A stretch of 20,326 nucleotides of DNA from positions 1 to 20,326 of IMG/VR virus record IMGVR_UViG_3300050821_004583. One strand, given 5' to 3'. Positions 747 through 19,364 of the stretch are shown here, piece after piece. The notes under the pieces were generated by a model. That model did no database searches. It saw nothing but the letters and a program-made list of their open reading frames with translations, and was not told where the DNA came from. The translations under genes were made by a program, and so were the position numbers. The stretch is from a virus. The first letter of the stretch is position 1. Each line of letters opens with the position of its first letter.

Positions 747-758
747 CTTATAGCGAAT
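747..758 (-). promoter_or_regulatory. Conserved promoter-like motif ATTCGCTATAAG (copy 1)
   Basis: An exact 12-bp match on the minus strand, in the 38-base gap between the ribonucleotide reductase stop (776) and the ATG at 737. TATAAG resembles a -10 element. Nine bases separate it from the ATG, so a start of transcription 6-7 bases downstream would leave a leader of only about 2-3 bases. No convincing -35 box is visible upstream. The promoter role is inferred from recurrence, orientation and position. Confidence 0.6.
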
Positions 759-775
759 ATATTGAGATAACGTCA

Positions 776-2431
776 TTAAGCTCCACAAGATCCGCCTTTT
801 GTTATGTCGCACACATCCGCTTGTTCCATAACAACTTCAGACATTTCGACTCCCATGTGACGAACGGCAGTAGAATATTTGACAGGTGTTAGAGGTTGTC
901 CGCCACGTGCTCCGTCGGGATAGCAAGTAATACCTCGAAGGTCTGGTAAATACTTCATAAGCATTTCACCAAACTCACGAACACGAGAATCATTATTTAA
1001 TTCTGAACCCCAAGCAGGCAAATTAATGGTCGATGAAATAGCATGATCGACATATTTCTGTAACCATGCTTGGAATGCAACACGACGTTCTACGTTTTCA
1101 GCTAATGCATAAGCATCTTCTATAGAATCTGGATTAACACCCGATTCAATCAAACGCTGAGCGGTAGGGTCGACAACGTACTGATAATGGACAACGCTAC
1201 CTTTCATATAACGTCGCTTGTAAGCAATACAAAAAATAGGTTCCATACCGGTCGTGGTTTCTCCAACAATACCGATTGTTCCTGTAGGAGCTATCGCGCG
1301 TGTCTTTTTTGGACGAGAAATTTCCCATTCATCAGCATATCGCCAACTAATTTCAGTAGATTTGGTATAGATCTTTAAATACTCTTCTAATTCAGGATCA
1401 GGACCGTATTTCTTATCTTTCTTTAAGAGCCATTCATGCAGTCCCATTAATCCAAGACCAAGACGACGATTCTTTGTACGAACCAAATCTACTTTTGAAT
1501 AAGGAACATCGCTATAAACAGTACCAGCCAAGAGGAACGCAGTAGATAGTTCAACTATACGCTCCATCTCTTCAAGAGATGTTATGCGAGCCATATTGAT
1601 TGAACCGAGATTGCAAATATCGCTATCATCCGAGCTTGTAATTTCTGTACAAGCATTACGAAGATGTTCTCCTCGATTAGCACCACAATCGATACTAAAA
1701 CCGGGCTCGGCTGTTTTAAGCATTTGACGAACAACTGCCCAGTAAATGTTATTTGCTAAAGCATGATTCTTATGTTTTTCGTCTTTGTATGCTTTGAAAA
1801 AATCGTCATCTAAGATAACACTGATATTGGTCCCATCAAGCGTAGCCGGGAAGTTATAATCCTTCTCTTTCATAGCACGGACTTCAGGTATCCAATTTTT
1901 GATTTGAACAAATTTCAAGCAATCAGGGTGATTCCAATGCAAACCTGCCCATATCGCTGAACGACGCGAACCGCCCTGCATAATCCCTCTACCAGCTTCG
2001 TTTACCATTTGCATAAGAGCTAGAGGGCCTGTAGCAGTGCCTCCGGTCTTACGGATTGGTTTCCCCTCTGCACGTACATCACTATAAACAACTCCGATAC
2101 CGGCACCAGTCATAAGAGCCATCGAAGCTTTCTGCATCAGATCGGCCCAACCTTCTCGACTGTCTTCCGCTTTCATCAATAGACAATTTTGAACCTGATG
2201 GAATGGACGTCCTGAGGCATATAGATAACGACCGCCAGGAATAAACTTTCGGTCAGCTATCATTTTTTCTATTTCTTTTATAAGAGCTTTAGGAGCGTTT
2301 ACCGATTTCATTACATTGGTAGCAACTCGTCTTGCAATCTCTTCCCAAGTTTCCTTGCGATTATCTACTTCGTGGGCATATTTCTGGTTCATTATTGTCT
2401 GTGCAAAAACAGACATTGTCGTCTCAGGCAT
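776..2431 (-). CDS. nrdJ: Class II-type (adenosylcobalamin-dependent) ribonucleotide reductase
   Basis: This enzyme reduces ribonucleotides to deoxyribonucleotides to supply phage DNA synthesis. The visible catalytic set is complete: the first redox Cys at about 83 (QNCLLM), the radical-site motif N-A-C-T-E with Cys261 and Glu263, and the second redox Cys at about 273 (CNLGSIN). The substrate-phosphate loop APTGTIGIVGETTTGMEP lies at about 381-398. The C-terminal tail ends with Cys541 and Cys549 (CDITKGGSCGA), the expected shuttle pair. At 551 aa it is short and shows no ATP-cone domain and no intein. Class II is inferred from the compact size, the IPGGRYLY...QNC pattern and the absence of a small-subunit gene in the window. 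A class I large subunit is less likely. The start overlaps the HNH gene stop by 8 bases (ATGCCTGA); Met6 is an alternative start. Confidence 0.88.
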   Translation of the reverse strand: MPETTMSVFAQTIMNQKYAHEVDNRKETWEEIARRVATNVMKSVNAPKALIKEIEKMIADRKFIPGGRYLYASGRPFHQVQNCLLMKAEDSREGWADLMQKASMALMTGAGIGVVYSDVRAEGKPIRKTGGTATGPLALMQMVNEAGRGIMQGGSRRSAIWAGLHWNHPDCLKFVQIKNWIPEVRAMKEKDYNFPATLDGTNISVILDDDFFKAYKDEKHKNHALANNIYWAVVRQMLKTAEPGFSIDCGANRGEHLRNACTEITSSDDSDICNLGSINMARITSLEEMERIVELSTAFLLAGTVYSDVPYSKVDLVRTKNRRLGLGLMGLHEWLLKKDKKYGPDPELEEYLKIYTKSTEISWRYADEWEISRPKKTRAIAPTGTIGIVGETTTGMEPIFCIAYKRRYMKGSVVHYQYVVDPTAQRLIESGVNPDSIEDAYALAENVERRVAFQAWLQKYVDHAISSTINLPAWGSELNNDSRVREFGEMLMKYLPDLRGITCYPDGARGGQPLTPVKYSTAVRHMGVEMSEVVMEQADVCDITKGGSCGA

Positions 2432-2813
2432 TGAATTCTCTCAAATACGAAATGGCACGCTGAAGAATATCTTCTGATTCCTTAGCTTGACCAATTAAAA
2501 TGTTACATTTTGAACAAAGTAAACCTCTTACATCAGAGGTGGCATGATCATGGTCTACGTGAAAATACTTTCCTTTTCCAATATAAGGTCCGCGACAAAT
2601 CGCGCACAATCCGTTCTGTTTTTTCAGGATTTCATCATATCTATCAATGGTTATTCCATATTTAGATTTGTACTTACGACGTCTTTGCGATTCCGGGGTA
2701 TTATGACGCTTTCGGTATTCAGCTTGTTTTTTAGGATTATTTTTACGCCAATTTTTTAAATATTGACGATATTCATCTGGATGATCAATCCTCCATTGTC
2801 GACTATGTACCAT
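2424..2813 (-). CDS. HNH nuclease of the recombination endonuclease VII family
   Basis: The 129-aa protein carries the endonuclease VII signature. Two zinc-binding CxxC pairs are visible (Cys70/73 and Cys100/103). They flank the catalytic stretch FHVDHDH (about 84-90), and VRGLLCSKCN ends in the conserved Asn104. The family includes T4 gp49, which resolves Holliday junctions and branched DNA before packaging. The Arg/Lys/Trp-rich N-terminus (about 1-50, with NWRKNNPKKQAEYRKRH) is typical of free-standing phage HNH nucleases that bind DNA. It overlaps the RuvC-like gene upstream by 11 bases and the reductase gene downstream by 8. The position next to a ribonucleotide reductase gene also fits a homing-type nuclease, because such genes often sit near nrd genes. 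The sequence does not decide between resolvase and homing roles. Confidence 0.88.
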   Translation of the reverse strand: MVHSRQWRIDHPDEYRQYLKNWRKNNPKKQAEYRKRHNTPESQRRRKYKSKYGITIDRYDEILKKQNGLCAICRGPYIGKGKYFHVDHDHATSDVRGLLCSKCNILIGQAKESEDILQRAISYLREFNA

Positions 2814-3423
2814 CGGAAGGAACAGCCCCCTTAAAATAGGCTAGCCCTAAGCAAATGGCATCAGCAGCATCGTTGTCTTTTACTTTCAATTTAAGATTGA
2901 AGACTTGGTTGACATGAGCGATGGCGATATGCTTCTTATTTGTTTTACCTTTTACACCAAGTTTTTTCTTCATTGCGCGAGCACCAGAATCACCACTTTC
3001 GCGCTTAGCTTTGTTGATTTTGGCGTTTATCTTCTTTTGTTCCTTCGTCATCCAAATACCAAGGACCGAACGCCAATGAGAAGTGTCAAAGTAAATAACC
3101 TTTACCGCTTCCATCATTAACTTTCTCAGAAGCTCATGATGAAGAAATTCGAGCATCTTCTGAGAATAACGATTCTTACCCTTATTCGTCTCTTCGATGA
3201 CAACAACTTCGGGATCGTTTTCTTCCCAAAGGTTCTTTAAAGAATTTACGTGCTCTTCAGCTACTGTAACATAAGACCAGGGATAGCTATCTCGTTCCTT
3301 AACAGACGGTCCATCAAAATGGATCGTTCCATATTTTACAAGCTTAGGAATTGTGTCATCAACGGGACTGTCGAAAAACGCATAACCACAATGAAGAGAT
3401 AAGTCGAGACAGAGAACGCGCAT
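2803..3423 (-). CDS. RuvC-like Holliday junction resolvase (RNase H fold)
   Basis: The 206-aa protein has the acidic residues expected of a RuvC/RNase H-fold nuclease: Asp7 in the first strand (VLCLDLS), Glu77/Glu78 in VVVIEE, and the C-terminal DNDAADA (Asp183, Asp185, Asp188). It would cut four-way DNA junctions in a metal-dependent reaction, clearing branched replication and recombination intermediates before packaging. A basic stretch at about 125-165 (rich in Lys/Arg) probably contacts DNA. Length is close to other phage RuvC-like proteins. The gene begins 12 bases past the stem of a terminator-like hairpin and has no obvious Shine-Dalgarno sequence, and it overlaps the endonuclease VII gene, with which it is presumably co-translated. 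The family call is firm; the precise substrate is inferred. Confidence 0.82.
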   Translation of the reverse strand: MRVLCLDLSLHCGYAFFDSPVDDTIPKLVKYGTIHFDGPSVKERDSYPWSYVTVAEEHVNSLKNLWEENDPEVVVIEETNKGKNRYSQKMLEFLHHELLRKLMMEAVKVIYFDTSHWRSVLGIWMTKEQKKINAKINKAKRESGDSGARAMKKKLGVKGKTNKKHIAIAHVNQVFNLKLKVKDNDAADAICLGLAYFKGAVPSDGT

Positions 3424-3435
3424 TAGATAAAGAAA

Positions 3436-3476
3436 GCCCCGCGAAATTAAAGACTCAGTATGAGATCTCGCGGGGC
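3436..3476 (-). terminator. Rho-independent-terminator-like hairpin
   Basis: A perfect 9-bp GC-rich stem (3436-3444 with 3468-3476, GCCCCGCGA/TCGCGGGGC) closes a 23-base loop that has its own 4-bp inner stem (3454-3457 with 3461-3464). On the minus strand it is followed by TTTCTTT (3435-3429). It lies between the stop of the 109-aa gene (3498) and the ATG of the RuvC-like gene (3423). The loop is long for a classical terminator, so an attenuator or 5'-leader structure is also possible. Confidence 0.65.
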
Positions 3477-3497
3477 GTGTTTAGTTGTAGATTGTGA

Positions 3498-3827
3498 CTA
3501 ATTACTTTCGTTCGAAGATGGCGTGTGATGGTTCACAACTTGAGTTGGTCCACCCTTATCATCTAGAGCTTTCTTCATGTATTCGATCTTCAACTTATTT
3601 GTTTTGAATCCTTCACGATACATAGCGCTGGCATCTTTATATTGCTCTGCACATTCCTTAAGATGCTCGTCTTCCTTCTTTAGGCGGCGTAGCTCTGCAT
3701 CATCAAGAGCGACTTTAGCAATTCGAAATTGAATTTCTTCTCGGGAAGAACCGGCAACAGCTTCTCGCCAATCTGACGGTAAATCAGCAAACGGATCTAC
3801 GACCTTCTTAAAACCCTTACGTGGCAT
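3498..3827 (-). CDS. Unknown 109-aa charged helical protein
   Basis: I do not recognise this family. The N-terminus is basic (MPRKGFKK), followed by DPFADLPSDWREAV. A long charged helix (about 28-92) with many Glu/Lys/Arg residues suggests a coiled coil or helical bundle. The C-terminus is polar (VNHHTPSSNESN). The start is well supported: AGGAG at 3833-3837 lies 5 bases before the ATG. The gene is preceded by the promoter-like motif (3853-3864) and followed by the terminator-like hairpin, so it may be its own transcription unit. Size and composition resemble small DNA-packaging or regulatory phage proteins, but no function can be assigned. Confidence 0.7.
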   Translation of the reverse strand: MPRKGFKKVVDPFADLPSDWREAVAGSSREEIQFRIAKVALDDAELRRLKKEDEHLKECAEQYKDASAMYREGFKTNKLKIEYMKKALDDKGGPTQVVNHHTPSSNESN

Positions 3828-3852
3828 CAGTACTCCTAATCCTTACACTTCT

Positions 3853-3864
3853 CTTATAGCGAAT
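3853..3864 (-). promoter_or_regulatory. Conserved promoter-like motif ATTCGCTATAAG (copy 2)
   Basis: An exact minus-strand copy that begins directly after the TAA of the 67-aa gene (TAA|ATTCGCTATAAG, the same arrangement as the copy at 13648). It lies 25 bases before the ATG at 3827. A good ribosome-binding site (AGGAG, 3837-3833) lies between, so this copy would give a conventional short leader. It supports the reading of the motif as a transcription signal rather than a translation signal. Confidence 0.62.
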
Positions 3865-4068
3865 TTAACACTTAGCTTTACAATCGATTTTATTAAGACC
3901 GATATAAGCTGGTCCCTTACAGCGTGGACACTTATGCGGATACCGATCATCTTTAGCCGGAATTATTTCAAACTCTATTTCATCAACTAATTTCCTGGCA
4001 GGAGCGGCATTGTAACTTCCTGCTTCAAGGGCCTTAGTGAGAGCTTCTATTGCTTCTATTGCATTCAT
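3865..4068 (-). CDS. Small zinc-finger protein
   Basis: A 67-aa protein of unknown function. The C-terminal half has four cysteines in a zinc-ribbon-like pattern: Cys47-P-R-Cys50 and Cys63-x3-Cys67. The N-terminal 25 residues are an Ala-rich amphipathic helix (AIEAIEALTKALEAG). AGGAT just upstream of the ATG, overlapping the stop of the preceding gene, gives a good ribosome-binding site and supports the start. The stop abuts the promoter-like motif at 3853-3864. Small zinc proteins of this type are common in phages and often bind nucleic acid or host proteins; that is a general family expectation and nothing here shows it directly. Confidence 0.7.
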   Translation of the reverse strand: MNAIEAIEALTKALEAGSYNAAPARKLVDEIEFEIIPAKDDRYPHKCPRCKGPAYIGLNKIDCKAKC

Positions 4069-4077
4069 AATAATATC

Positions 4078-4455
4078 CTAATTCGGCACCATGTAAGCTC
4101 CGTGAAACGTATCTACCTCTATAGGCCACGATTCATCGTCAAGCACACATACTGCAACCCTGACAGGGCATTTATAATGTTCCATGCTCAATGCGTCTAT
4201 ATCATCAAGCAAATACCAAACATCTTTTAAGGTCACTTCGCTGACTCGCATGTCACCGTAGATGATCTTCACATAATCACAATAAGCGTCTGCATCATCC
4301 TTTGACAGGAATAAACGCAAAAGAGATTCTTGAGGAGCTGATTCTTCTAGTCCTTGTTCTTCAGGAGACTCCGCAAAGAATATGCCTTCAGGATTCAAAA
4401 TCGCATAGTACGCATCTGTCCCGTAAGCTTTTTCAAATAATTCTTGGGTTAGCAT
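4078..4455 (-). CDS. Unknown 125-aa acidic protein
   Basis: I do not recognise the family. The protein is strongly acidic, with clusters such as ESPEEQGLEES and LLDDIDALS, and has the look of a small single-domain alpha/beta protein. No membrane segment, signal peptide or metal-binding motif is visible. The start overlaps the stop of the SbcC-like gene by 7 bases (ATGCTAA), and the downstream zinc-finger gene begins 9 bases after its stop, so it belongs to the same operon. Its acidic character could fit an inhibitor or DNA mimic, but that is speculation. Confidence 0.68.
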   Translation of the reverse strand: MLTQELFEKAYGTDAYYAILNPEGIFFAESPEEQGLEESAPQESLLRLFLSKDDADAYCDYVKIIYGDMRVSEVTLKDVWYLLDDIDALSMEHYKCPVRVAVCVLDDESWPIEVDTFHGAYMVPN

Positions 4456-6293
4456 CGGATCTTTGAACGCTCATTCTTATAATCAATTTCGATAACACGA
4501 TTGAACATTTCTTTAAACTCGCTCGCATGCTCAACGATGATTATCAATTTTTTATCTGAATACTGTTTGAGGATTTCTATACATCCTTCTTTTGTGACCT
4601 TATCAGAACCGTTTGCAAATGCTTCATCCAAGATTAACCATCCCAAATTAGTTCCAGTACGTTGAGCAATGATGTTACCGACAGCTAAATCAACCGCTAG
4701 CTCTATCGAAGTGTACATACCTCCTGAAGCTCCAGATTCAAGAGACCAAATCCTTCCTCCAAAATAAGCTACGGGAGTTATTTCATTACGAGTTTTTCCT
4801 TCTTGTGTTTCTCTGTTTGTCTCAAACTTCAGTGTCACTTTTGAAGCATTGGGCAAATTAGCGAGTATCCTATTAGTTTCATTAGAGATTTCTTGTAATA
4901 TTTCGGCAAATATTTGACCAAGAAACCCACGCAACATTTCCAAGTAATCCGTCTCGGTTTTTTCGACCTTGAGTAATTCGGTATGTCTTAATGCTTCTTC
5001 CTTATATTTCGCCTCTGCAGAAGCGATAGTCTCTAGAGCTTGTTGACGAAGACGTAAATTTGTCTCATTGTGATTCTTTGCTTCTTGAAGAACACTTCTC
5101 TTTTGGCTAAGGTCTTCCGCAGCGACAGTTAATTCCTTCTCCCCCTCACTTAATTTCTGTCGTTTTAATTCAGAACGACTATTAATATCTTCTAGATGTT
5201 TCAAAGAAGCCGCATGAATCTCTGATTGTTTTATATCAATTTCGTGAAGGATTTTCGTCTCTGTATCTTTAAGTGTTTGAAGATTTCTAAATTGACTCTC
5301 GGCTTCTTGAAGATGACCTTCATGTCGTTTTATTTCTTGATGATTATTTTCCATCTCGATTCGAGATTTATCCCATTGACGATCACAACGAGGGCATTTG
5401 TCATCAAATAACCTCTTTATCTCTGATTGAAGACGAAATATTTCTCGTTGAGCACGCTGTATCAATAATTCAGGCTGTCCTAAACGTTGAATCCTGGAGC
5501 GACACTGCTTTAATAAATTTTGCAAACGGTCAAGCTCGGATGAATCATATTCAAATTTTATATTCTTATAGGTATCAATTTCAGTTTGCAAAATAGCTCT
5601 GTGATCACTAAGAACCCTTAAAATCAAAAGAGCGCGCTCTACCTGATGCTCTAAATCACTTGTGTCTCGCTGATTTTCAAGAGGTAGACGAGCCTTGGCT
5701 TCGTCAATCAGTTTCTTATGTAGCTCTACAATAGGTTCATGACTAACACGTTCCTTTGTTGCGACTGATAGTTTTTTAACAGCTTCTTCAATCGCTTCTT
5801 CAAGCCAATGTAATTGTAGAAGCTCCACTAGAAATTCTTTTTTTTCACTATCTTTCTTTGAAAGGAAAAGACCGAAGGTACGTTGCTTGCGATATGTCAT
5901 CGCTTCACGCATCTTCTTATTCATTCCACAGACTGCATCGAGCATTTCGTTGACAGTTTTGGCACTGGTAATTTTCTTACCATTAGACTTAATCCACAGC
6001 CTATCTCCTCGATGGATAGTCATCGGACCATAAGATGTCATTAATTCTAATTCAACGAACATAGGGTCTTCGTTATGCCAGCAACGGAGATCGGTGGCTG
6101 CATAAGGGGCGCAGTCTAGTACATATGCTATAGCGTGGAATATGGTCGACTTACCGGCTCCAGACTCTCCTCGTGAATCATGATTGAAACCACGAACCAA
6201 ATACAAACCCGTCTCTTCGAAGTCGATTGAATGCAATCCTTCGAATGAACGAAAATTCTGTAGAGTCAAACGGCGAAGGAAAACTGTTCCCAT
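4449..6293 (-). CDS. SbcC/Rad50/T4 gp46-like recombination ATPase
   Basis: A 614-aa SMC-type ATPase that would pair with the SbcD/gp47-like nuclease at 13962 to process DNA ends for recombination-dependent replication. Walker A is GESGAGKST (about 42-50). Long heptad-rich coiled-coil arms (about 170-295 and 310-450) flank a zinc hook, CPRC (300-303). The C-terminal head carries the ABC signature ESGASGGMYTS (about 519-529), a degenerate LSGGE. Walker B and D-loop follow in LILDEAFANGSD (about 553-564). A switch His is likely in IIIVEHASEF. Length is close to T4 gp46 (about 560) and much shorter than bacterial SbcC. It is separated from the upstream zinc-ribbon gene by 9 bases and overlaps the next gene by 7. 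Confidence 0.92.
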   Translation of the reverse strand: MGTVFLRRLTLQNFRSFEGLHSIDFEETGLYLVRGFNHDSRGESGAGKSTIFHAIAYVLDCAPYAATDLRCWHNEDPMFVELELMTSYGPMTIHRGDRLWIKSNGKKITSAKTVNEMLDAVCGMNKKMREAMTYRKQRTFGLFLSKKDSEKKEFLVELLQLHWLEEAIEEAVKKLSVATKERVSHEPIVELHKKLIDEAKARLPLENQRDTSDLEHQVERALLILRVLSDHRAILQTEIDTYKNIKFEYDSSELDRLQNLLKQCRSRIQRLGQPELLIQRAQREIFRLQSEIKRLFDDKCPRCDRQWDKSRIEMENNHQEIKRHEGHLQEAESQFRNLQTLKDTETKILHEIDIKQSEIHAASLKHLEDINSRSELKRQKLSEGEKELTVAAEDLSQKRSVLQEAKNHNETNLRLRQQALETIASAEAKYKEEALRHTELLKVEKTETDYLEMLRGFLGQIFAEILQEISNETNRILANLPNASKVTLKFETNRETQEGKTRNEITPVAYFGGRIWSLESGASGGMYTSIELAVDLAVGNIIAQRTGTNLGWLILDEAFANGSDKVTKEGCIEILKQYSDKKLIIIVEHASEFKEMFNRVIEIDYKNERSKIRC

Positions 6294-6302
6294 TCGCGCA
6301 CC

Positions 6303-6596
6303 TTATTCTTTTGTTGGATCGATCTTAGAACGTTCTTTATGGAGTCGTTCAGCGTCTACTAAACGTTCCACGGCACGAGGCATAAGACCATTATCGAGAC
6401 GTTCATAACGTTGATTGGTGGGACCGGAGGGATCACGTTCCATTGTGTTTTCATTTGCTGTAGCAGGTAAATTTGGACCATCGTTATCTCGCGCGCTACA
6501 ATCTCCGCATTTTATCGGGATTTTTGCCTGCGCTGGAGAACATATACGACGTCTTTTATTACCGCATTTGGGACAAATGAAATTGTATAATGGCAT
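6303..6596 (-). CDS. FmdB-like zinc-ribbon protein
   Basis: The 97-aa protein begins MPLYNFICPKCG and has CxxC pairs at Cys8/Cys11 and Cys30/Cys33, which is the pattern of the FmdB-type putative regulatory zinc ribbon (MPxYxFxCxxC start). The rest (about 40-97) is polar and probably disordered or helical, with many Arg/Asp/Glu. Function of this family is not settled; a nucleic-acid or protein-binding role is usual. The ATG overlaps the stop of the preceding membrane-anchored gene by 1 base (TAATG), indicating translational coupling. Confidence 0.78.
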   Translation of the reverse strand: MPLYNFICPKCGNKRRRICSPAQAKIPIKCGDCSARDNDGPNLPATANENTMERDPSGPTNQRYERLDNGLMPRAVERLVDAERLHKERSKIDPTKE

Positions 6597-7759
6597 TAAT
6601 TCTTCTTAGACTTCTTCTTCTTTACTGAAAGCTTACGCTTAACAGGACGCTTATGGACACCGACTACTTTGAAGCTCGGTATCTTACTCACTCTATCAAT
6701 TGGAGGAAGCGTTATTTCAATAGGAGGCAATACCTCATCAGGTACATCCCATAATTCTGGGTTCGGAGCAGGAGTCTTGAAGGTCTCCAATTCGGCCTTT
6801 AGTTCTGCTATTTCCTTTTCCTTCTCTTCTAATACAGTCTTATGATAAAACGCTTCATCTTCTAGTTTCGTAGCTATTTCTTTTAGAGCGACCACGATCA
6901 TGTTACGGGCTGTATGAATTTTTTCTACTTCTTTTAAGTCCTTTAACAATTCGTCTTGTTGTTTCAAAGCATAAACTATATTTCCAAATGTTGGATTCCC
7001 GTCGTAATCCTCATTTTTAGGATCTATGCGCTTATGCTGAGTCGAAGCCCACTGAGCAGCGGCTTGTCCAGCACTTACAGCACTGATTTCTCCATAACTA
7101 GGCATCGTCACAGCGTGTGGACTTCCTACCATTTGCTGATATGTCTTAGGTTCCTTCTTAGGCTTAATGGTAAGCGGATCGATAAATGGGTATAGTCTAT
7201 TAGGTACGTCCTTCTTATTCTTACCTGCTAAGAAATCGAAAACTTGATTACCTGTGTGATGTCTAACTTGTTTATCTTTTAAATATTCTGTTACAACGTC
7301 TAATGCCGTATTGAAAGCCACTGCTCTATCATGAGGATCGTATTCAAGATCGCCATACTTACTTTCATGTTTATAACAAGTTCTCAAATGATTAGTTTCT
7401 GCCTCTTTAAAACGTCTTTCAACTTCCATAGCAGATACAGGCTCAAGGGTGTTACGATTTACTAAATCATGAGCACACGGACCTTCGTGTCCATAATCAC
7501 GAGTACAAGCAGAATATAAACCAGCAGTGTTCGGGGGAACAAATCCACACCTATCTTCAGGCATAGTTTCATCAAGAACGGATTCTGCAGCGTCCCTTAT
7601 CTTTTGACTCCATTCATCACCGATCAGATCTTCTCCTGAAGAATCAGTAGGAGCACTTAGTTGATTATCCTTATAACGACGATAAGCCATCACAGCGAAT
7701 AACACTAACGTCATTACCGCTATGGGAACAACTAAGAAACAAAATAACATTGCGATCAT
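6596..7759 (-). CDS. Membrane-anchored coiled-coil protein, unknown function
   Basis: A 387-aa protein with one N-terminal hydrophobic segment (about 2-25) followed by RRYK, predicting an N-out, C-in signal anchor by the positive-inside rule. A Cys/His cluster follows: Cys71, Cys85, His91, Cys95 and His97 in CGF...C...GHEGPCAH, a possible metal site of a type often seen in phage proteins. A long coiled coil is likely at about 268-335 (KDLKEVEKIH to AELETF). A Pro-rich stretch comes next, and the C-terminus is very basic (KRKLSVKKKKSKKN), suited to binding nucleic acid or acidic phospholipid. I do not recognise the family. The ATG directly follows the TAA of the 55-aa membrane protein gene, so the two membrane proteins may work together. 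Confidence 0.75.
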   Translation of the reverse strand: MIAMLFCFLVVPIAVMTLVLFAVMAYRRYKDNQLSAPTDSSGEDLIGDEWSQKIRDAAESVLDETMPEDRCGFVPPNTAGLYSACTRDYGHEGPCAHDLVNRNTLEPVSAMEVERRFKEAETNHLRTCYKHESKYGDLEYDPHDRAVAFNTALDVVTEYLKDKQVRHHTGNQVFDFLAGKNKKDVPNRLYPFIDPLTIKPKKEPKTYQQMVGSPHAVTMPSYGEISAVSAGQAAAQWASTQHKRIDPKNEDYDGNPTFGNIVYALKQQDELLKDLKEVEKIHTARNMIVVALKEIATKLEDEAFYHKTVLEEKEKEIAELKAELETFKTPAPNPELWDVPDEVLPPIEITLPPIDRVSKIPSFKVVGVHKRPVKRKLSVKKKKSKKN

Positions 7760-7927
7760 TTAAAACATACCTTTCAGAGCCCCTAAGAGGGCGATTGCTA
7801 CAATTGACATTAATACTATCAGAGTATATAAAAACCAAGCTTGATTTTGAACCTTACACTGTTCACCCATCTCTCTTACAAAGATAAGTAACAATAAACA
7901 AACAGTGACTAATTCAAACGGTGTCAC
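7760..7927 (-). CDS. Small 55-aa two-helix membrane protein
   Basis: A short frame fills exactly the gap between the chaperonin stop (7928) and the next ATG (7759). It starts with GTG at 7927, immediately after the chaperonin TAA, and its TAA (7762-7760) is immediately followed by the next ATG. The protein has two hydrophobic segments, about 3-17 (FELVTVCLLLLIFV) and about 31-50 (WFLYTLIVLMSIVAIALLGA), joined by a short charged loop (REMGEQCKVQNQ). This suggests a small hairpin inner-membrane protein. The perfect fit on both sides supports coding; an internal ATG (Met20) would give only one helix. Holin-like size and topology are noted, but nothing else supports a lysis role. Confidence 0.68.
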   Translation of the reverse strand: MTPFELVTVCLLLLIFVREMGEQCKVQNQAWFLYTLIVLMSIVAIALLGALKGMF

Positions 7928-9775
7928 TTAACGCTCATTTGCCTCATTGATATTTGCGTTTCGTTCAAAATCTTGAGCGTTATGTGCTTCAGTCCTTTCA
8001 AACTGAGTATCACGATGGAATACAACGGTACCACCGAGAGTGCCTAACTGACTTGCAATAGAAATTGCATTACGAATAGCTTCCAAAACAGCTGGAGTTG
8101 AATCTAATACCCCAAGCTCGACAGGATCGCCATGACGATGCTCATAAGCATCATATACAACAGTTTTTCCGTCTCGAAGACCTTCAAGAACTGGAGATAA
8201 AATCCTTTTTATATCATTATCATTAAATCCACAATTCTTTAACAATCGATCAACCGGAACAATCAATGCCGGCTTCAATACGTTAGAGACAACAGCATCT
8301 GCATCAGACAGCAATGAACAAAGCTTCAAAAGCATCCAGCCGCCGCCAGGTAGACAACCATATCTGATTGCTCCTCGAACAGCACAAACAGCATCTTCTG
8401 CTCGGGCTGCCTTTTCCTTTAGCTCTCCGTTAGAACTGCCAACTACGTGGAGCTTAGCAATTCCACCAGTCAACTTACCGACACGTTCTTGAAGCCAGAT
8501 TTTGTCTGCATCTGATTCAGGATTTCTCAACAGAGCTTCAACGTCTGCTACACGAGCCAAAAGGCGATCTTCGTATGTTTCAAATTTTTCATAGTCGACT
8601 GAGCCTTCTGGTATTTGACCTTCGGCTCGACCAATTATGATAGAACGGAAACGAGAAGATTCAAACGTTGTCAGACCGGGGCCCAAATCTTCTAGCTCTC
8701 CTCTATCGGGAGGATTAGTGATGGGGTCGAATACGACCGCTCCTGTTACAGCAGCCAAATCTTCCAGGAATTGACGCTGTCCATTCGTTGCTGCAAGCAA
8801 AGGAACGAGTAGTGGAAAAATTCGAATCGAATTAGGCTGCGTAGAAGCGTGAGCAAACGATGCTATAACCTTAGGAGAGAATCCCGTCGCAATTACTACA
8901 ACATTATAGTTTCTGTAATCCGACCTAAAATTAGGAAGTGGCTGACCAGCAGCATCGTTACCTCCGTTCAATCTCATCTCCAGCTGATCTCCCACTTTCT
9001 GTAAGAGCGGAAGAATCGGCTGAACGTCATTTATCACTCCATGGTAAAGAAGAAATACAGGCTTCTCCATGACGACCTTTTGAGTGCCCGCATCGTTGAT
9101 GAAAGCAGAGTAATACTTTGCACACGACTGTTCATATCCAATCGGTATAGGATATCCTTCAAGACGTTCTACTTGATAACCAGTAGGGCCTGAACGTTCC
9201 AAGATCGTTACGTTACCTTCGTCTCCGATTTCATCAAAGCATTGCATGACGGCCTCAGCAAGATCTTCTTCGTTATTTGCCGAAATCTTTGCTACAGACT
9301 TTTGTAGTTTTCTATCGTTTTTGACGACAATCGAAGATGCTTCAATAGCAGGGACGATTTGATCCCTGAATGTAGTCTCAAGAGTACGTACAACCTTCTG
9401 AGGAGAGACATGAGGATTTCTTTTACAAAAATCATCGATATATCGGACTAAAGCCTCCGATAACACCGTTGCTGTAGTTGTACCGTCTCCTGCTTCATTG
9501 GCCGTCTTTACGGCGGCATCACGAGCAGCTTCCATGATGCAATGGTCGGTCGGATCTGCCATACCAAGGGCACGCATTACCGTCACACCATCCTTCGTAA
9601 TTAGAGGAGGTAGCCCATGTTCAAATCTCTCAATAAGAACAGGTTGACCGCTTGGACCAAGTGTAGAGCCGACAATCGAGCTAACAATATCCATGGTACC
9701 AAGTACACGCTTTCGAAGAGTGTTACCCTTAACGGTAATCACCTTCGAGGCTGACTTAGCCTTCTGATATTCCAT
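7928..9775 (-). CDS. Phage GroEL-type (group I) chaperonin
   Basis: A 615-aa ATP-dependent folding chaperone, presumably for phage proteins. The equatorial and intermediate domain motifs align clearly with GroEL: TLGPSGQPV (about 38-46), TKDGVTV with Asp62 (GroEL Asp52), GDGTTTAT with Asp97 (GroEL Asp87), ERVGKLTGGIAKLHV (about 430-444) and RAEDAVCAVRGA with Asp461 (GroEL Asp398). All three ATPase aspartates are present. It is about 65 residues longer than E. coli GroEL; the extra length is mainly in the apical region around 260-300 and 325-370. The C-terminus lacks the GGM repeats. No standard GroES gene is seen nearby. The ATG directly follows the TAA of the AT-hook gene, and the stop abuts the 55-aa membrane gene. 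Confidence 0.95.
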   Translation of the reverse strand: MEYQKAKSASKVITVKGNTLRKRVLGTMDIVSSIVGSTLGPSGQPVLIERFEHGLPPLITKDGVTVMRALGMADPTDHCIMEAARDAAVKTANEAGDGTTTATVLSEALVRYIDDFCKRNPHVSPQKVVRTLETTFRDQIVPAIEASSIVVKNDRKLQKSVAKISANNEEDLAEAVMQCFDEIGDEGNVTILERSGPTGYQVERLEGYPIPIGYEQSCAKYYSAFINDAGTQKVVMEKPVFLLYHGVINDVQPILPLLQKVGDQLEMRLNGGNDAAGQPLPNFRSDYRNYNVVVIATGFSPKVIASFAHASTQPNSIRIFPLLVPLLAATNGQRQFLEDLAAVTGAVVFDPITNPPDRGELEDLGPGLTTFESSRFRSIIIGRAEGQIPEGSVDYEKFETYEDRLLARVADVEALLRNPESDADKIWLQERVGKLTGGIAKLHVVGSSNGELKEKAARAEDAVCAVRGAIRYGCLPGGGWMLLKLCSLLSDADAVVSNVLKPALIVPVDRLLKNCGFNDNDIKRILSPVLEGLRDGKTVVYDAYEHRHGDPVELGVLDSTPAVLEAIRNAISIASQLGTLGGTVVFHRDTQFERTEAHNAQDFERNANINEANER

Positions 9776-10279
9776 TTAGGAGACCTTATCGAAGCTCGAT
9801 ACCTTAAACTCTCGTAGATCGTTTACGACGATTGTACGACGAGTGCCGAATCCACCAGACGAATGTCTGAAGCGATGCAGAGAAATCTCTACACGAGGCT
9901 TCTTATCATCATCAGGAAGCGTTTCTTCCTGCAGCTTGCGTAGGTAACGAGCTACTTGTCGAGGCGATACGCCTACTCTAAAATGCTCTCCCCATTCACC
10001 GATAGCCTTTGCTAAATCTTCATTCGTTCCTTCAAAGGGACGACTTTGGACTTTCGCATAGTCTTGCAAGTACTTCAGGACGACGTGTTTGTGATAATCA
10101 AATTGGCCAACCGGGCGACCACGCTTAGGTTTCTTCTCTTGGACTTCAGTAAGTAACTGAGTAGTGTCAGGAGATGTATTCAAAATTTCCTTCATGAAAC
10201 TCTTATAGCGGATTTTCTTCATCCATCGTTCAGGGTCATATTGGTCAACGGTATGACGTTTGATAACATAATCTTCCAC
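9776..10279 (-). CDS. AT-hook and helix-turn-helix DNA-binding protein
   Basis: The 167-aa form starts with GTG at 10279. It contains an AT-hook at about 49-57 (KKPKRGRPV), then a helical domain (about 67-118) that looks like a winged-helix or HTH: NEDLAKAI followed by VSPRQVARYLRKLQ, with the second helix as a plausible recognition helix. A beta-rich C-terminus follows. It is likely a transcriptional or replication regulator acting on AT-rich DNA, possibly the adjacent divergent region. The start is uncertain: an in-frame ATG at 10195 (Met29) lies 6 bases after a near-perfect promoter-like motif, the same spacing as at the start at 10482, and would give a 139-aa protein that keeps both DNA-binding parts. 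The chaperonin ATG follows its stop directly. Confidence 0.78.
   Translation of the reverse strand: MEDYVIKRHTVDQYDPERWMKKIRYKSFMKEILNTSPDTTQLLTEVQEKKPKRGRPVGQFDYHKHVVLKYLQDYAKVQSRPFEGTNEDLAKAIGEWGEHFRVGVSPRQVARYLRKLQEETLPDDDKKPRVEISLHRFRHSSGGFGTRRTIVVNDLREFKVSSFDKVS
10202..10213 (-). promoter_or_regulatory. Near-match promoter-like motif ATCCGCTATAAG, inside a gene
   Basis: This minus-strand sequence matches the conserved motif at 11 of 12 bases and lies inside the 5' part of the AT-hook gene (encoding IRYK). Six bases separate it from the in-frame ATG at 10195, the same spacing as the motif before the gene at 10482. It could drive a shorter, leaderless form of the AT-hook protein and the chaperonin downstream. 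Because it lies in coding sequence, chance conservation cannot be excluded. Confidence 0.45.
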
Positions 10280-10332
10280 TGGGAAAACCCATTAAAAGTC
10301 GTGCCTGGTATCCTTAGATAGTTAACTGTAAT

Positions 10333-10375
10333 AAGTAAACTTAATTATCTTAATGTAGAAACTACAGATTTACTT
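10333..10375. repeat. Inverted repeat in the divergent region
   Basis: AAGTAAA (10333-10339) and TTTACTT (10369-10375) are perfect 7-bp complements. Nested between them is a second 5-bp inverted repeat, TGTAG/CTACA (10354-10358 and 10362-10366). It could be an operator for the AT-hook/HTH protein encoded alongside, but such AT-rich repeats can arise by chance. Confidence 0.4.
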
Positions 10376-10463
10376 TAGTGTAGTACATTTAGTTTTAAAC
10401 TTTAGTTACGAAAAGATTTTTGAAACTTGTAGCGAAACTAACAGATTTAAGTACCATTAAAAG

Positions 10464-10475
10464 ATTCGCTATAAG
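10464..10475 (+). promoter_or_regulatory. Conserved promoter-like motif ATTCGCTATAAG (copy 3)
   Basis: An exact plus-strand copy. The spacing to the ATG at 10482 is 6 bases (ATCAGT), so if TATAAG is a -10 element, transcription would start at or next to the A of the ATG and give a leaderless mRNA. No Shine-Dalgarno sequence is visible before this gene. It would drive the whole right-hand block. Confidence 0.65.
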
Positions 10476-10481
10476 ATCAGT

Positions 10482-11066
10482 ATGAGAATTAGTTTCATCG
10501 GGTGTCCATGTAGTGGGAAAACCACAACAGCTGCAATGACTTTTGCTTCTATGAAAGAAATTGGGATTAATTGCGAATTCATTGCAGAGCAAGCTCGTAT
10601 GTATATTGCTGAACGTCGCAAGATTCTCGGACTCAAACCAGAACAGAAATTAATACTTGAAGATATCGATCAACTAGATATCATGCAAGCGCAACTTTAT
10701 ATCGAAGAAACATTTGATTCAGTCTGTGATAAAGGAACTTTAATAATCACAGATTCATCTCCATTTAATTCAATTTTATATATGACAAACAATGCAAGAG
10801 AAATAGCAATAAATAATAAATACATTGAAAGAGCTATATTTGGAGCCGATCTAGTATTTTACTGTCCTCCAGCAATTACAACCGGAACACTCGATGCTAA
10901 CCGAATTCATGATGAACAACAATCACTCAAAATTGATGAATCGATACCTGTTATTTTGCGGACAATCGCTCCTGCAGTTTGGAAAAACATAATTTGGCTA
11001 GAAGGTGATCCCAAGACTCGTTTGAGTCAAGTGACAGCAGCCATTATGTTGCGTCGCATGACCTAA
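10482..11066 (+). CDS. P-loop ATPase/kinase-like protein (AAA_28, NadR-like)
   Basis: The 194-aa protein has a clear Walker A at residues 7-15 (GCPCSGKTT) right at the N-terminus. A Walker B-like strand ends in TLIITDSSPF, with Asp followed by Ser-Ser-Pro. The region around RIHDEQQ may serve as the lid. This layout is typical of the AAA_28/NadR-type group of small P-loop kinases found in phages, whose substrates may be nucleosides, NAD precursors or other small molecules. The substrate here is unknown; nucleotide or NAD metabolism is only a family-based guess. It is the first gene of the right block, with the promoter-like motif 6 bases ahead, and its TAA overlaps the helicase ATG by 1 base. 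Confidence 0.8.
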   Translation: MRISFIGCPCSGKTTTAAMTFASMKEIGINCEFIAEQARMYIAERRKILGLKPEQKLILEDIDQLDIMQAQLYIEETFDSVCDKGTLIITDSSPFNSILYMTNNAREIAINNKYIERAIFGADLVFYCPPAITTGTLDANRIHDEQQSLKIDESIPVILRTIAPAVWKNIIWLEGDPKTRLSQVTAAIMLRRMT

Positions 11067-12625
11067 TGATAACGATTACCGAGCCAACTATAGCAAGATT
11101 TGACGATAGCTACGCAGATAAAAATATTGTTGATGGAGCAAACCTAGATAGTAGAAAGCTACGTCTCCTCAAGTCTCAGTTAAAATATATTGATAAGAAG
11201 ATCGAGTACGATATCAAGCGTCTTAAGTCTAGTGCTCATTGGTATGAGGGAGATAAAGAAAAAGAAGCTAAGTATAAAATCAAACTAGACTCCCTCAAGT
11301 CTGAAAAACAAAAATCCCTCTTATTTGAAGATGAACATGGTTACTACACCTATTCTGGTATCGCGCACTCACTTGCTTCTCAATTCGGAGACAGTGTCAA
11401 AGTTGGGTATCAGTTACCTTCCTTTGGTCCCTTACCCTATGCCAATAAACCAAAACACGAAGCAAGACCATATCAACAAATCGCCCACGATAAATTACTA
11501 CATTCTGCCCATCTGGGACCACGTCGAGTTGAAATTGGTACTGGACTAGGTAAATCTACAATTATTCGAATGCTGATTAAGACCATCGGTCTTAAGACAG
11601 TCGTCATGGCTCCTTCAGCGAATATAGCTGATCAACTATATAAAGACTTTGTCTATCATTTCGGTAAGCGTTACGTAGGTAAGTTTGGTGATGGTAAGAA
11701 GCAATCAGATAAGCTCATTACAGTAGGGATCGATGATTCCCTTACATTGGTAGAGGAGGGAACAGAACATTGGGAAAACCTTTCAAAGGCTCAAATGTTC
11801 ATAGCTGACGAATCTCATTTAGTTCCTTCTACGACTCTTGCAAAAGTATGTCTAGGGTTGTGTAAAGATGCTTCCTATCGTTTCTTCTTTTCTGCTACTC
11901 AAATAAGAAATGATGGTCTCGATTTAGTCCTTAACGGGATTACAGGAGAGACTGTCTTCTCGATGACAGTACGAGAGGGTATCGAACAAGAATATCTGTC
12001 AAAGCCTCATTTCAAGATGATTCATATAAAGTCAGATGTTGAATCAAAAACAACAGACCCTGGCAGGTTGACTCGCCAACATCTCTATTATAACAATAAG
12101 GTCATTCAGACAGCAGCTAGTTTAGCTAATATGTACGTGAAGGCTTTGAAACGTCCAACGGTCATTCTAGTAGAAGAGCTAGAACAATTTACGATGCTCC
12201 TGCCTTATTTGAAATATCCGGCTCGATTTGCCCATGGTCCTTTGAATGATAAAAGAAAGAAACTCATACCCAAAGAATACCATGATGACGATCCTACTGA
12301 ATTAGTAAATTTGTTTAATGAAGGTAAAATCCCTATTTTGGTTGGTACGTCATGCATCGCTACGGGTACGGATTTACAAGCTGTAGAAGCTCTGATTTAT
12401 TTACAGGGTAAGTCGAGTGAAATAAAAACGAAACAAGCTGTAGGTCGAGCAACTCGTGGAGGCAAGAAAAGCTTCGTCTTTAATCCTTGGACTGAAAAAC
12501 AAAAGCTTGATTGTATCTATATCGACTTTGTAATCAATAATGTGGAATTGGTAAATCGTCATTCATATATACGTAAGGGATACTATAACGAATTATATGG
12601 GCCGGTAATAGAAGTGGATATGTAA
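11066..12625 (+). CDS. SF2 DNA helicase, UvsW-like
   Basis: A 519-aa superfamily 2 helicase. The motifs run in order: RPYQ (about 134-137), motif I GTGLGKST (158-165), motif II DESH (248-251), motif III SATQ (276-279), motif V region TSCIATGTDLQAVEA (about 428-441) and motif VI QAVGRATR (457-464). The N-terminus (about 28-85) is a charged coiled coil not seen in minimal helicases. The organisation resembles T4 UvsW, which remodels branched DNA and R-loops and helps switch replication from origin-dependent to recombination-dependent modes; the match to UvsW specifically is inferred. The start overlaps the preceding stop (TAATG), as does its stop with the next start, indicating tight translational coupling. 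Confidence 0.9.
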   Translation: MITITEPTIARFDDSYADKNIVDGANLDSRKLRLLKSQLKYIDKKIEYDIKRLKSSAHWYEGDKEKEAKYKIKLDSLKSEKQKSLLFEDEHGYYTYSGIAHSLASQFGDSVKVGYQLPSFGPLPYANKPKHEARPYQQIAHDKLLHSAHLGPRRVEIGTGLGKSTIIRMLIKTIGLKTVVMAPSANIADQLYKDFVYHFGKRYVGKFGDGKKQSDKLITVGIDDSLTLVEEGTEHWENLSKAQMFIADESHLVPSTTLAKVCLGLCKDASYRFFFSATQIRNDGLDLVLNGITGETVFSMTVREGIEQEYLSKPHFKMIHIKSDVESKTTDPGRLTRQHLYYNNKVIQTAASLANMYVKALKRPTVILVEELEQFTMLLPYLKYPARFAHGPLNDKRKKLIPKEYHDDDPTELVNLFNEGKIPILVGTSCIATGTDLQAVEALIYLQGKSSEIKTKQAVGRATRGGKKSFVFNPWTEKQKLDCIYIDFVINNVELVNRHSYIRKGYYNELYGPVIEVDM

Positions 12626-13647
12626 TGAGTGACGACACGCATTTTAGACAATTCGCTGTTACGTTAGAAAAGTCTATAGAGAAATATGGCGATATAGATA
12701 ATTTCAACAAGCGTCAACAGCAACAGATAAAGAGCTTGATTGCTCTTGAGAGCGATTTCCGTCAGGCTCTTATTGATCACAGTCTTGGCAACAGAATGTA
12801 TAAGGCTTTCGTTCGTTATATTAACGTCTACAAGCATAACATACTAGCTGCTCGTCCCTTCTTCCGTGAACGTCAGAGGATTTTCACTCGTTCTATTTCA
12901 AAAGCTTTGAAGACCGGTGATATTGAAAAGTTACAAAAGTTCCGTTTCAACTTTACATTTGTTCAATTCGTACTTGGTTCATATCCTTGGCGACCGAATT
13001 CAAAGGTGGCAAAGATTGCGAGGGAAATAGTCAAATTACGTTGGGAGTTGGTGACTTTAAATTTGCCGCTTGCTATCAGTCGTGCTCGTATATTCTTTAG
13101 CCGTACGCCTCGCTCTCATCTTGATTACATGGATCTGGTCGATATCGCTTGTGAGGGATTGATGAACGCTATAGATAAATTCGTTCCTTCAGCAGAAGCT
13201 GGTGCATTCCCTTCGGTTGCTATTCAACGTATGACGGGTAATTTCATAGAAGAATACTCAGAGACTAAAATTCACTTCTATCCAGTCGACAAGAGAAAGA
13301 TCTATAGGGCCAATAAAATCCTCGGTCGTAATGGCGAAGTGATTATCGAAGAGTTAGTAAAAAGGGTCAATTTAGGTGTTGAAAAATCTGGACGTACTAA
13401 CGCCGATGAACTTTCCGGCCTCTTAGCGGCTCAGTCTTGTATCAGCATGGAGAATAAAATCCAAGCCAATGAGTTTGGAAAAGACGAAGTCAAGATCGAG
13501 GAGCACTTTGAGGCACCCTCTGAAACGCAACCAGACGTGATATGCGAGGAGATGGACTCCATGGTGTCACTCGCACAGGCTATTTCTCAACTAACGCCTC
13601 TGGAGCAGAAGATCCTAAAGCTTCGTGGTGTAGATTTACTACAATAA
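12625..13647 (+). CDS. Sigma-factor-like protein lacking region 4.2
   Basis: The 340-aa protein shows sigma-70-family features. Region 2 lies at about 140-213: NLPLAISRARIFF, then DLVDIACEGLMNAIDKF (the DLxQxGxxGLxxAxxKF pattern) and a following helix ending IEEY. Region 3-like sequence follows at about 222-285 (including DELSGLLAAQ and ISMENKI). The start of region 4 is visible at about 312-337 (SQLTPLEQKILKLRG). The protein then stops at LLQ, just where the -35-binding helix-turn-helix (4.2) should be. No other frame continues it, so this is not a simple frameshift. T4 gp55 is likewise reduced and recognises a -10-only late promoter. The role would be to redirect host RNA polymerase; it may read the ATTCGCTATAAG motif found next to its own stop. 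The N-terminal 120 residues are unrecognised. Confidence 0.8.
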   Translation: MSDDTHFRQFAVTLEKSIEKYGDIDNFNKRQQQQIKSLIALESDFRQALIDHSLGNRMYKAFVRYINVYKHNILAARPFFRERQRIFTRSISKALKTGDIEKLQKFRFNFTFVQFVLGSYPWRPNSKVAKIAREIVKLRWELVTLNLPLAISRARIFFSRTPRSHLDYMDLVDIACEGLMNAIDKFVPSAEAGAFPSVAIQRMTGNFIEEYSETKIHFYPVDKRKIYRANKILGRNGEVIIEELVKRVNLGVEKSGRTNADELSGLLAAQSCISMENKIQANEFGKDEVKIEEHFEAPSETQPDVICEEMDSMVSLAQAISQLTPLEQKILKLRGVDLLQ

Positions 13648-13659
13648 ATTCGCTATAAG
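13648..13659 (+). promoter_or_regulatory. Conserved promoter-like motif ATTCGCTATAAG (copy 4)
   Basis: An exact plus-strand copy starting directly after the TAA of the sigma-like gene and ending 9 bases before the ATG at 13669. The expected start of transcription would leave a leader of about 3 bases. It would separate the downstream nuclease, packaging and head genes from the sigma gene, as expected if the sigma product activates them. Confidence 0.65.
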
Positions 13660-13668
13660 ATAAGTACG

Positions 13669-18347: not shown

Positions 18348-18363
18348 AGCACAATCTTCCTCT

Positions 18364-18369
18364 AAAGGA
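18364..18369 (+). promoter_or_regulatory. Ribosome-binding site AAAGGA
   Basis: AAAGGA lies 8 bases before the ATG at 18378, in the 30-base gap after terL. It is one of the clearest Shine-Dalgarno sequences in the window and fixes the start of the beta-rich structural gene; it would fit a highly expressed gene. Confidence 0.7.
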
Positions 18370-18377
18370 CTAATAAT

Positions 18378-19364
18378 ATGCAAGGCACACTTACTATTCA
18401 GACCCGCACCCTCGGCTTTGCGGATCCTCAAAATCCGGGTAATGACCCATTAAAAAGAACGGTTGATTGGGCGTCTACGATTACTATTCCGGCGAATAAT
18501 GCTACCGCTCAGCCTTATACAATAGATCCTGGTGCTACTCTTTCTTTATTCAGTGGCTCGCGTACGATTAGTGCTGACGGTACAACGCAATGGACATTGA
18601 CGTTAAGTCCTCTCGCTTCGAATCGTTATAGATTTACTAATAATGCTGGTACCGCTCCTGCTCTTCGTACTGATAGAGCATTAGCTCTTAATACGCAAAC
18701 CGTAACGGTTGTAGTTAATTCAAATCAGACGGCTACATTTACGGCTTCTGGTGGTGGAGCATTCAGCGCAGTCGTTGCCGGCGATACTTTCTTCATCCCC
18801 GGTGTTTCAACTGGTGATACAGCAGGCCCGTTCAATGCGTTAAATGAAGGTGTTTGGGTCGTATTGTCTTCAACCGGTACTGTACTACAAGCAGCACGTC
18901 CGACCGGAACAGCTTTCCAGGGATTCGCTCAGGGTCCTATTACCATAACATCGAATATCCAAGTTCAGGCATTTAGCGCCGCTGGCGTTCAAGTAAACGA
19001 TGGCGTTTATATTAGTGCTGGATTCCCGACCGCAGTATTGACTCATTTTACAGTCATTGCAGTTAATCCAAAATGGTTTGAGATTTTGAGCAACGCTCCT
19101 CTTCCGGTAACTTCTATTGCTACTCCTGGAGCAAACGGTATTCAATTCTATAATCGTGCAAAGCGTCGTATTGAAGTATGGGCTGACCAAGAATGTGTTG
19201 TTCAAGTAAATGGAGATGCAGGATTGTCGAATAAGGTTTCTCCATGGCAAGCAGCCGATGTGACTCAGATGGGTTCTTACATTAAAGACGGATTAACATT
19301 CTCTGCTACCGTCGTGAATATGTCTGTTTTGCCTTTGAACGTTCTTTATATTTCTGCTGAATAA
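18378..19364 (+). CDS. Probable virion structural protein (beta-rich)
   Basis: A 328-aa protein, rich in Thr, Ser, Ala, Gly and Val with alternating polar/hydrophobic residues, suggesting a beta-sandwich or similar fold. It has no Cys apart from one, near EVWADQECVVQVNGD (about 273-287). The segment RRIEVWADQECVVQVNG and the tail LPLNVLYISAE look like a conserved C-terminal module found in phage head-region proteins. It sits between terL and the portal with a strong ribosome-binding site, which fits a head decoration, vertex or stabilising protein; a tail protein is less likely by location. No enzymatic motifs are visible. The exact role is unknown. Confidence 0.72.
   Translation: MQGTLTIQTRTLGFADPQNPGNDPLKRTVDWASTITIPANNATAQPYTIDPGATLSLFSGSRTISADGTTQWTLTLSPLASNRYRFTNNAGTAPALRTDRALALNTQTVTVVVNSNQTATFTASGGGAFSAVVAGDTFFIPGVSTGDTAGPFNALNEGVWVVLSSTGTVLQAARPTGTAFQGFAQGPITITSNIQVQAFSAAGVQVNDGVYISAGFPTAVLTHFTVIAVNPKWFEILSNAPLPVTSIATPGANGIQFYNRAKRRIEVWADQECVVQVNGDAGLSNKVSPWQAADVTQMGSYIKDGLTFSATVVNMSVLPLNVLYISAE

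Follow-up and report, generated by a model that had tools for sequence, protein, structure and literature searches.

Single-element promoters are a known kind in phages: the late promoters of T4 (TATAAATA), read by gp55, are -10-only, and those of phiEco32 also rely on one element. The middle and late promoters of phiEco32 have the single element tAATGTAtA, with transcription starting 6−8 bases downstream; they are read by the sigma factor gp36, and the missing -35 box is explained by the absence of region 4 from gp36 (PMC8948821). As for Thermus phage P23-45, its middle and late promoters belong to the extended -10 class and use the host sigma-A together with the phage protein gp39 (PMC7403470).

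The virus fragment analysed here has two promoter-like motifs, class A (ATTCGCTATAAG, consensus TYCGC-TATAAG) and class B (YAATCTT/A), with the traits of the single-element kind: one conserved element before genes, no -35 box, and a sigma factor devoid of region 4.2. The gp36 promoters of phiEco32 are the closest precedent, having in common with this locus the single element and a sigma factor without region 4; however, the tAATGTAtA consensus differs from both class A (TYCGCTATAAG) and class B (YAATCTT), and the presence of two single-element classes with a marked leaderless arrangement distinguishes the present case. The likeness to T4 late promoters lies in the -10-only format and, more generally, in the T4-like SbcC/D-like, helicase, and recombinase genes near class A; T4 late promoters stand before late structural genes, whereas class A combines TATAAG with TYCGC and stands before replication-type and terminase-region genes. 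With P23-45 this locus shares the lack of -35 dependence and the extended -10 class, the difference being that the sigma factor is phage-encoded here. In the open-access papers searched, neither the two motif sequences nor such a pair of classes nor so strong a leaderless arrangement has a precedent.

The window, that is, the whole stretch of DNA analysed, is a 20,326-base IMG/VR virus fragment with a G+C content of 41%, and no close DNA match to it was found in the phage collection. It encodes, in this order, a helicase, the sigma factor, an SbcD-like protein, the terminase large subunit, and the portal protein, with GroEL and SbcC-like genes on the opposite strand. This gene order agrees with that of Myxococcus phage Mx1 (OR576727.2, 169,621 bp; terL 41% identical), for which only a genome announcement was found in the literature (PMC10720576). 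Two other relatives are G001 (43.9 kb, terL 77% identical to that of the window, G+C 54%) and G016 (20.2 kb, terL 61% identical, G+C 63%), and beyond them there are about 30 more distant related loci; single-protein scans for relatives returned G001 alone or nothing. Between G001 (L032−L034) and the window the shift in composition is strong (G+C 54% vs 41%), yet terL and the sigma factor are ∼77−83% similar.

Regarding class A, the original prediction placed four exact copies of ATTCGCTATAAG in the window, two of them directly after a TAA and each followed by AGT or AAGT, and all of this holds (Table 1). Chance repetition had been deemed unlikely, in line with the 0.004 copies expected in the window under a third-order Markov model; among all 12-mers of the window, four copies are found only for ATTCGCTATAAG and its reverse complement, and the most enriched 9-mer is CGCTATAAG, with 5 copies vs 0.15 expected. 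A loose search allowing up to 3 mismatches gave 27 sites vs 22.7 expected, a count not above chance, so the signal resides in the near-exact copies only. Two copies had been missed at first reading: ATCCGCTATAAG, with one mismatch, located inside ORF 9776−10279, and the weaker TTTCGCTACAAG.

Table 1. Promoter-like elements of the window and the genes discussed with them; transcription starts (+1) are predicted.
Feature	Position	Strand	Remarks
Class A promoter (putative), exact	747..758	-	+1 at 740; 3-nt leader; ATG 737 (gene 3-737)
Class A promoter (putative), exact	3853..3864	-	+1 at 3846; 19-nt leader with AGGAGT; ATG 3827
Class A promoter (putative), one mismatch (ATCCGCTATAAG)	10202..10213	-	+1 = A of ATG 10195 (leaderless)
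Weak class A-like copy (TTTCGCTACAAG)	10426..10437	-	faces the wHTH/GroEL operon; no pyrimidine at -1
Class A promoter (putative), exact	10464..10475	+	+1 = A of ATG 10482 (leaderless)
Class A promoter (putative), exact	13648..13659	+	+1 at 13666; 3-nt leader; ATG 13669
Class B (late) promoter-like element, CAATCTT	18352..18358	+	before gene 18378-19364; +1 at 18365
Possible class B copy, CAATCTA	3488..3494	-	upstream of hairpin and RuvC-like gene 2803-3423; conserved in G001
wHTH-like gene, start corrected (MKEIL..)	9776..10195	-	weak HTH matches, below curated cut-off
Phage sigma factor, 340 aa	12625..13647	+	spans regions 2 to 3.2, ending just into region 4

The copies recur at the orthologous genes of G001. 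The one at 10464, which heads the kinase-helicase-sigma operon, corresponds to a G001 copy at 12857; the one at 13648, which directly follows the stop of the sigma gene and precedes gene 13669−13962, the SbcD-like gene, and the terminase region, has its ortholog at 9724 and a variant form in L058/G017; that at 3853, ahead of gene 3498−3827 and of the RuvC-like and ribonucleotide reductase genes, is matched at 19105. The ATCCGCTATAAG copy stands 6 nt ahead of the likelier start of the wHTH-like gene, which is followed by the GroEL and SbcC-like genes, and the arrangement at G001 13278 is identical. The longest ORF at this site starts at GTG 10279, probably wrongly, because G001 conserves nothing of the extension ahead of ATG 10195 except the motif itself. 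In a place comparable to that of the weak TTTCGCTACAAG copy, G001 has a second copy (12884−12895), and the counterpart of the 747 copy is at 22648−22659. HNH endonuclease genes are found at several differing places, in the window (2424−2813, minus strand) and in G001 (L032, L033); one of those in G001 separates the 22648 motif from the gene that it directly precedes in the window.

The prediction would have failed if the motif were absent or randomly placed elsewhere; instead, CGCTATAAG recurs in two relatives, mostly directly before genes, with 13 copies vs 0.08 expected in G001 and 5 vs 0.03 in G016. In these two sequences, too, it ranks first or very near the top despite their higher G+C, and the enrichment in all three (41, 54, and 63% G+C) was found without a prior model. 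Further G001 copies stand before genes for DNA polymerase, a UvsX-like recombinase, and a Clp-type protease, and three (42279, 12884, and 31525) are not directly followed by a clear gene. More distant lineages have drifted versions (TTCGCTAC.. and ATTCGATAGAA) with the geometry of class A: GTTTCGCTAC in G017, GATTCGCTATA in G020, with GG(Y) before +1, and (A/T)GATTCGATAGAA in G009, where GATTCGATAG reaches 26 copies vs 0.05 expected. All three keep TTCG(C/A)TA and have start codons 6−7 nt behind the hexamer at several sites; those of G009 precede GroEL and the helicase-sigma operon, the same places as in the window. Such drift makes class A a natural series for studying the evolution of promoter specificity. 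G002, G004, G008, G013, G021, and Mx1 all bear the sigma factor, but no class A was detected in them. The terL tree did not show the class A lineages as one clade; they may have a single origin.

The anatomy of class A was derived from 25 copies aligned on CGCTATA(A/T)G. The consensus reads T-17, Y-16, C-15, G-14, C-13, T-12, A-11, T-10, A-9, A/T-8, and G-7; TYCGCTATA(A/T)G is nearly invariant, and the logo has no information near -35, as expected from the initial claim that no -35 box is apparent. The view of the motif as a -10 element stands for the TATAAG core and has to be extended for the rest: besides a -10 box, the motif includes TYCGC, which lies upstream of it and hardly varies. A pyrimidine-purine step, the mark to be expected if transcription began 6−8 bases downstream, occurs 6/7 bases after TATAAG, with Y at -1 in 24/25 copies and R at +1 in 25/25; when the five sites whose +1 coincides with the start codon are left aside, Y is at -1 in 19/20 and R at +1 in 20/20. 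The start codon lies 6 nt past the hexamer at five sites, 8−10 nt past it at nine, and at least 20 nt past it at five, with none at 11−19 nt; those within 6−10 nt imply predicted leaders of 0−4 nt. Over all class A lineages, Shine-Dalgarno-like sequences are found at 0/15 sites at distance 6 and at 13/23 sites at 11 nt or more.

The frequent position at a fixed 6−9 nt ahead of the start codon would also suit a translational or RNA-processing signal, a reading that is very improbable: other copies lie 20−25 nt upstream, mostly with an intervening Shine-Dalgarno-like sequence, the pyrimidine/purine mark keeps a constant distance to the motif and not to the start codon, and no pairing with the 16S rRNA end is evident. 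Rfam returned no match.

An ordinary promoter of the host housekeeping sigma factor, of the extended -10 type, could likewise do without a -35 box, as the P23-45 middle and late promoters illustrate (PMC7403470), and TATAAG is just one base apart from TATAAT. Nevertheless, the host housekeeping sigma is unlikely to read class A: every copy (25/25) has G at -7, a position for which sigma-70 prefers T; in other lineages this base is C, G, or A while TTCG(C/A)TA is retained, and it is uncommon for housekeeping promoters to show such a number of nearly invariant positions. Neither of the sigma-70 hallmarks, a -35 near TTGACA and T at -7, is present in class A, and a generic sigma-70 promoter scan stayed below the shuffled expectation.

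As for a promoter of a T7-like single-subunit RNA polymerase, CGCTATAAG resembles the CACTATAG of such promoters. This origin is extremely improbable: the start mark of class A is ∼7 bases further downstream than such a promoter would have, and the Mx1 annotation lists no such polymerase; PF00940 had no match in nine relatives, a result to be read with the fact that its controls were without match too. 

The recurrence before genes in relatives and the lack of a -35 box support the original proposal, and class A is very probably, from its sequence features, a phage-specific -10-only promoter.

The second motif, CAATCTT, emerged family-wide from a prior-free search of upstream regions. In the form YAATCTT/A, this single element precedes virion genes across the family, Mx1 included, where it stands before the portal, tail sheath, tailspike, and baseplate genes. 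Its copy in the window lies before gene 18378−19364, placed between the terminase and portal genes; YAATCT (YAATCTT/A) precedes the ortholog of this gene in 17 of the 18 sequences examined, the remaining one having GAATCTT. Class B has no -35 box either. The distance to the start codon peaks at exactly 6 nt (38/183 sites, with at most 8 at any other distance and 0−6 for control hexamers), and Shine-Dalgarno-like sequences accompany 4/45 sites (9%) at 6 nt vs 62% at 18 nt or more. That two unrelated motifs have this geometry in common speaks for both being -10 elements followed by a start 7 bases downstream. In Mx1 (L005), the start of the putative prohead protease is annotated at 13002, upstream of a CAATCTT whose predicted +1 is the in-frame ATG 13023; the annotated start is probably wrong, and the gene probably begins at this ATG. 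On the minus strand of the window, positions 3423−3494 contain CAATCTA and, after it, a conserved hairpin, rich in G+C and ending in a T-rich tail, an arrangement also found in G001; the hairpin may act as a terminator or belong to a leader.

The sigma factor matches phage sigma factors of PHROG 351, and its profile aligns to RpoD over regions 2 to 3.2 and into the first part of region 4 (E 1e-7). In all relatives the protein stops at about the same point, the start of region 4, and in nine relatives a search for the region 4 family gave no match, its controls being positive. A structure model built on a 17-row alignment had moderate confidence (pLDDT 74), and sigma-A and sigma-70 chains were among the listed matches of a fold search with it, with low global TM-scores. 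Lack of the -35-binding region 4.2 fits -10-only promoters.

Which class this sigma factor reads can be weighed from its distribution: sigma and class B are family-wide, and class A is missing from many sigma-bearing relatives. On this ground the sigma is tentatively assigned to class B, for which the chances appear evenly balanced. A more doubtful alternative is that it reads ATTCGCTATAAG, so that its own operon is positively autoregulated, and that recognition of YAATCTT falls to another factor or to the sigma together with a coactivator. The absence of region 4.2 from the sigma and of a -35 box from class A would agree with this, as would the class A copy before the sigma operon, the lack of a second copy of this sigma in the records searched (the 182-kb G009 included), and the drift of class A between lineages, expected for a coevolving phage factor; against it stands the distribution just described. 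The reader of class A may be the same sigma, another phage factor encoded in unsampled sequence, or an alternative host sigma; no gene specific to the class A lineages was found among the records, several of which are fragments.

With the sigma on class B, a transcription plan can be proposed, in which start sites at class A, timing, and the pairing of factors with classes are all predicted from the DNA. Class A would act as an extended -10 box without a -35, with the start at the pyrimidine/purine step 7 bases past TATAAG, and would drive the replication, nucleotide, chaperone, and terminase-region operons from mRNAs that would often be leaderless or nearly so. The copy at 10464 would drive the operon containing the sigma; deprived of the -35-binding part, this protein would then direct the host core RNA polymerase to the late YAATCTT/A before virion genes. 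Gene functions, from which the timing is taken, suggest that ATTCGCTATAAG is a middle class expressing the sigma, which in this plan would be a middle-gene product itself, like gp36 of phiEco32. More broadly, it is somewhat probable that the whole large-phage family, Mx1 included, uses single-element promoters that put the start site right at the start codon of many genes, and that leaderless translation is regular for virion genes and, in some lineages, for replication-type genes too; in the latter, two classes would coexist, one diverging by lineage and the late one fixed. The family in which this plan can be tested includes many metagenomic phages and, as the one sequenced and culturable member found, Mx1. 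The plan offers two different single-element promoter sequences together with a candidate sigma factor, and it suggests that leaderless mRNA is widespread among the phages of at least one myxobacterium.

Among other repeated words of the relatives, two were rejected. In Mx1, AGATCCGC, which at first sight resembles class A, has 31 copies; the promoter-like ones float between TTGACA and TAnnnT, others are located outside such contexts, and the word is probably a separate element. Among the small minus-strand genes at ∼87−121 kb, it lies inside TTGACA/TAnnnT spacers at varying positions, in an operator-like manner. AGATCCAG of G021 was discarded for having no promoter-like context. G013 (L112−L119) has words of the GCGCTAACAG and GCTTCAGCAG type in 16−24 repeats, far over expectation. 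Finally, TAGATCAAC occurs in Mx1 in 11 copies vs 0.5 expected, shortly before start codons, for instance at 44652−44660 and 125834−125842.
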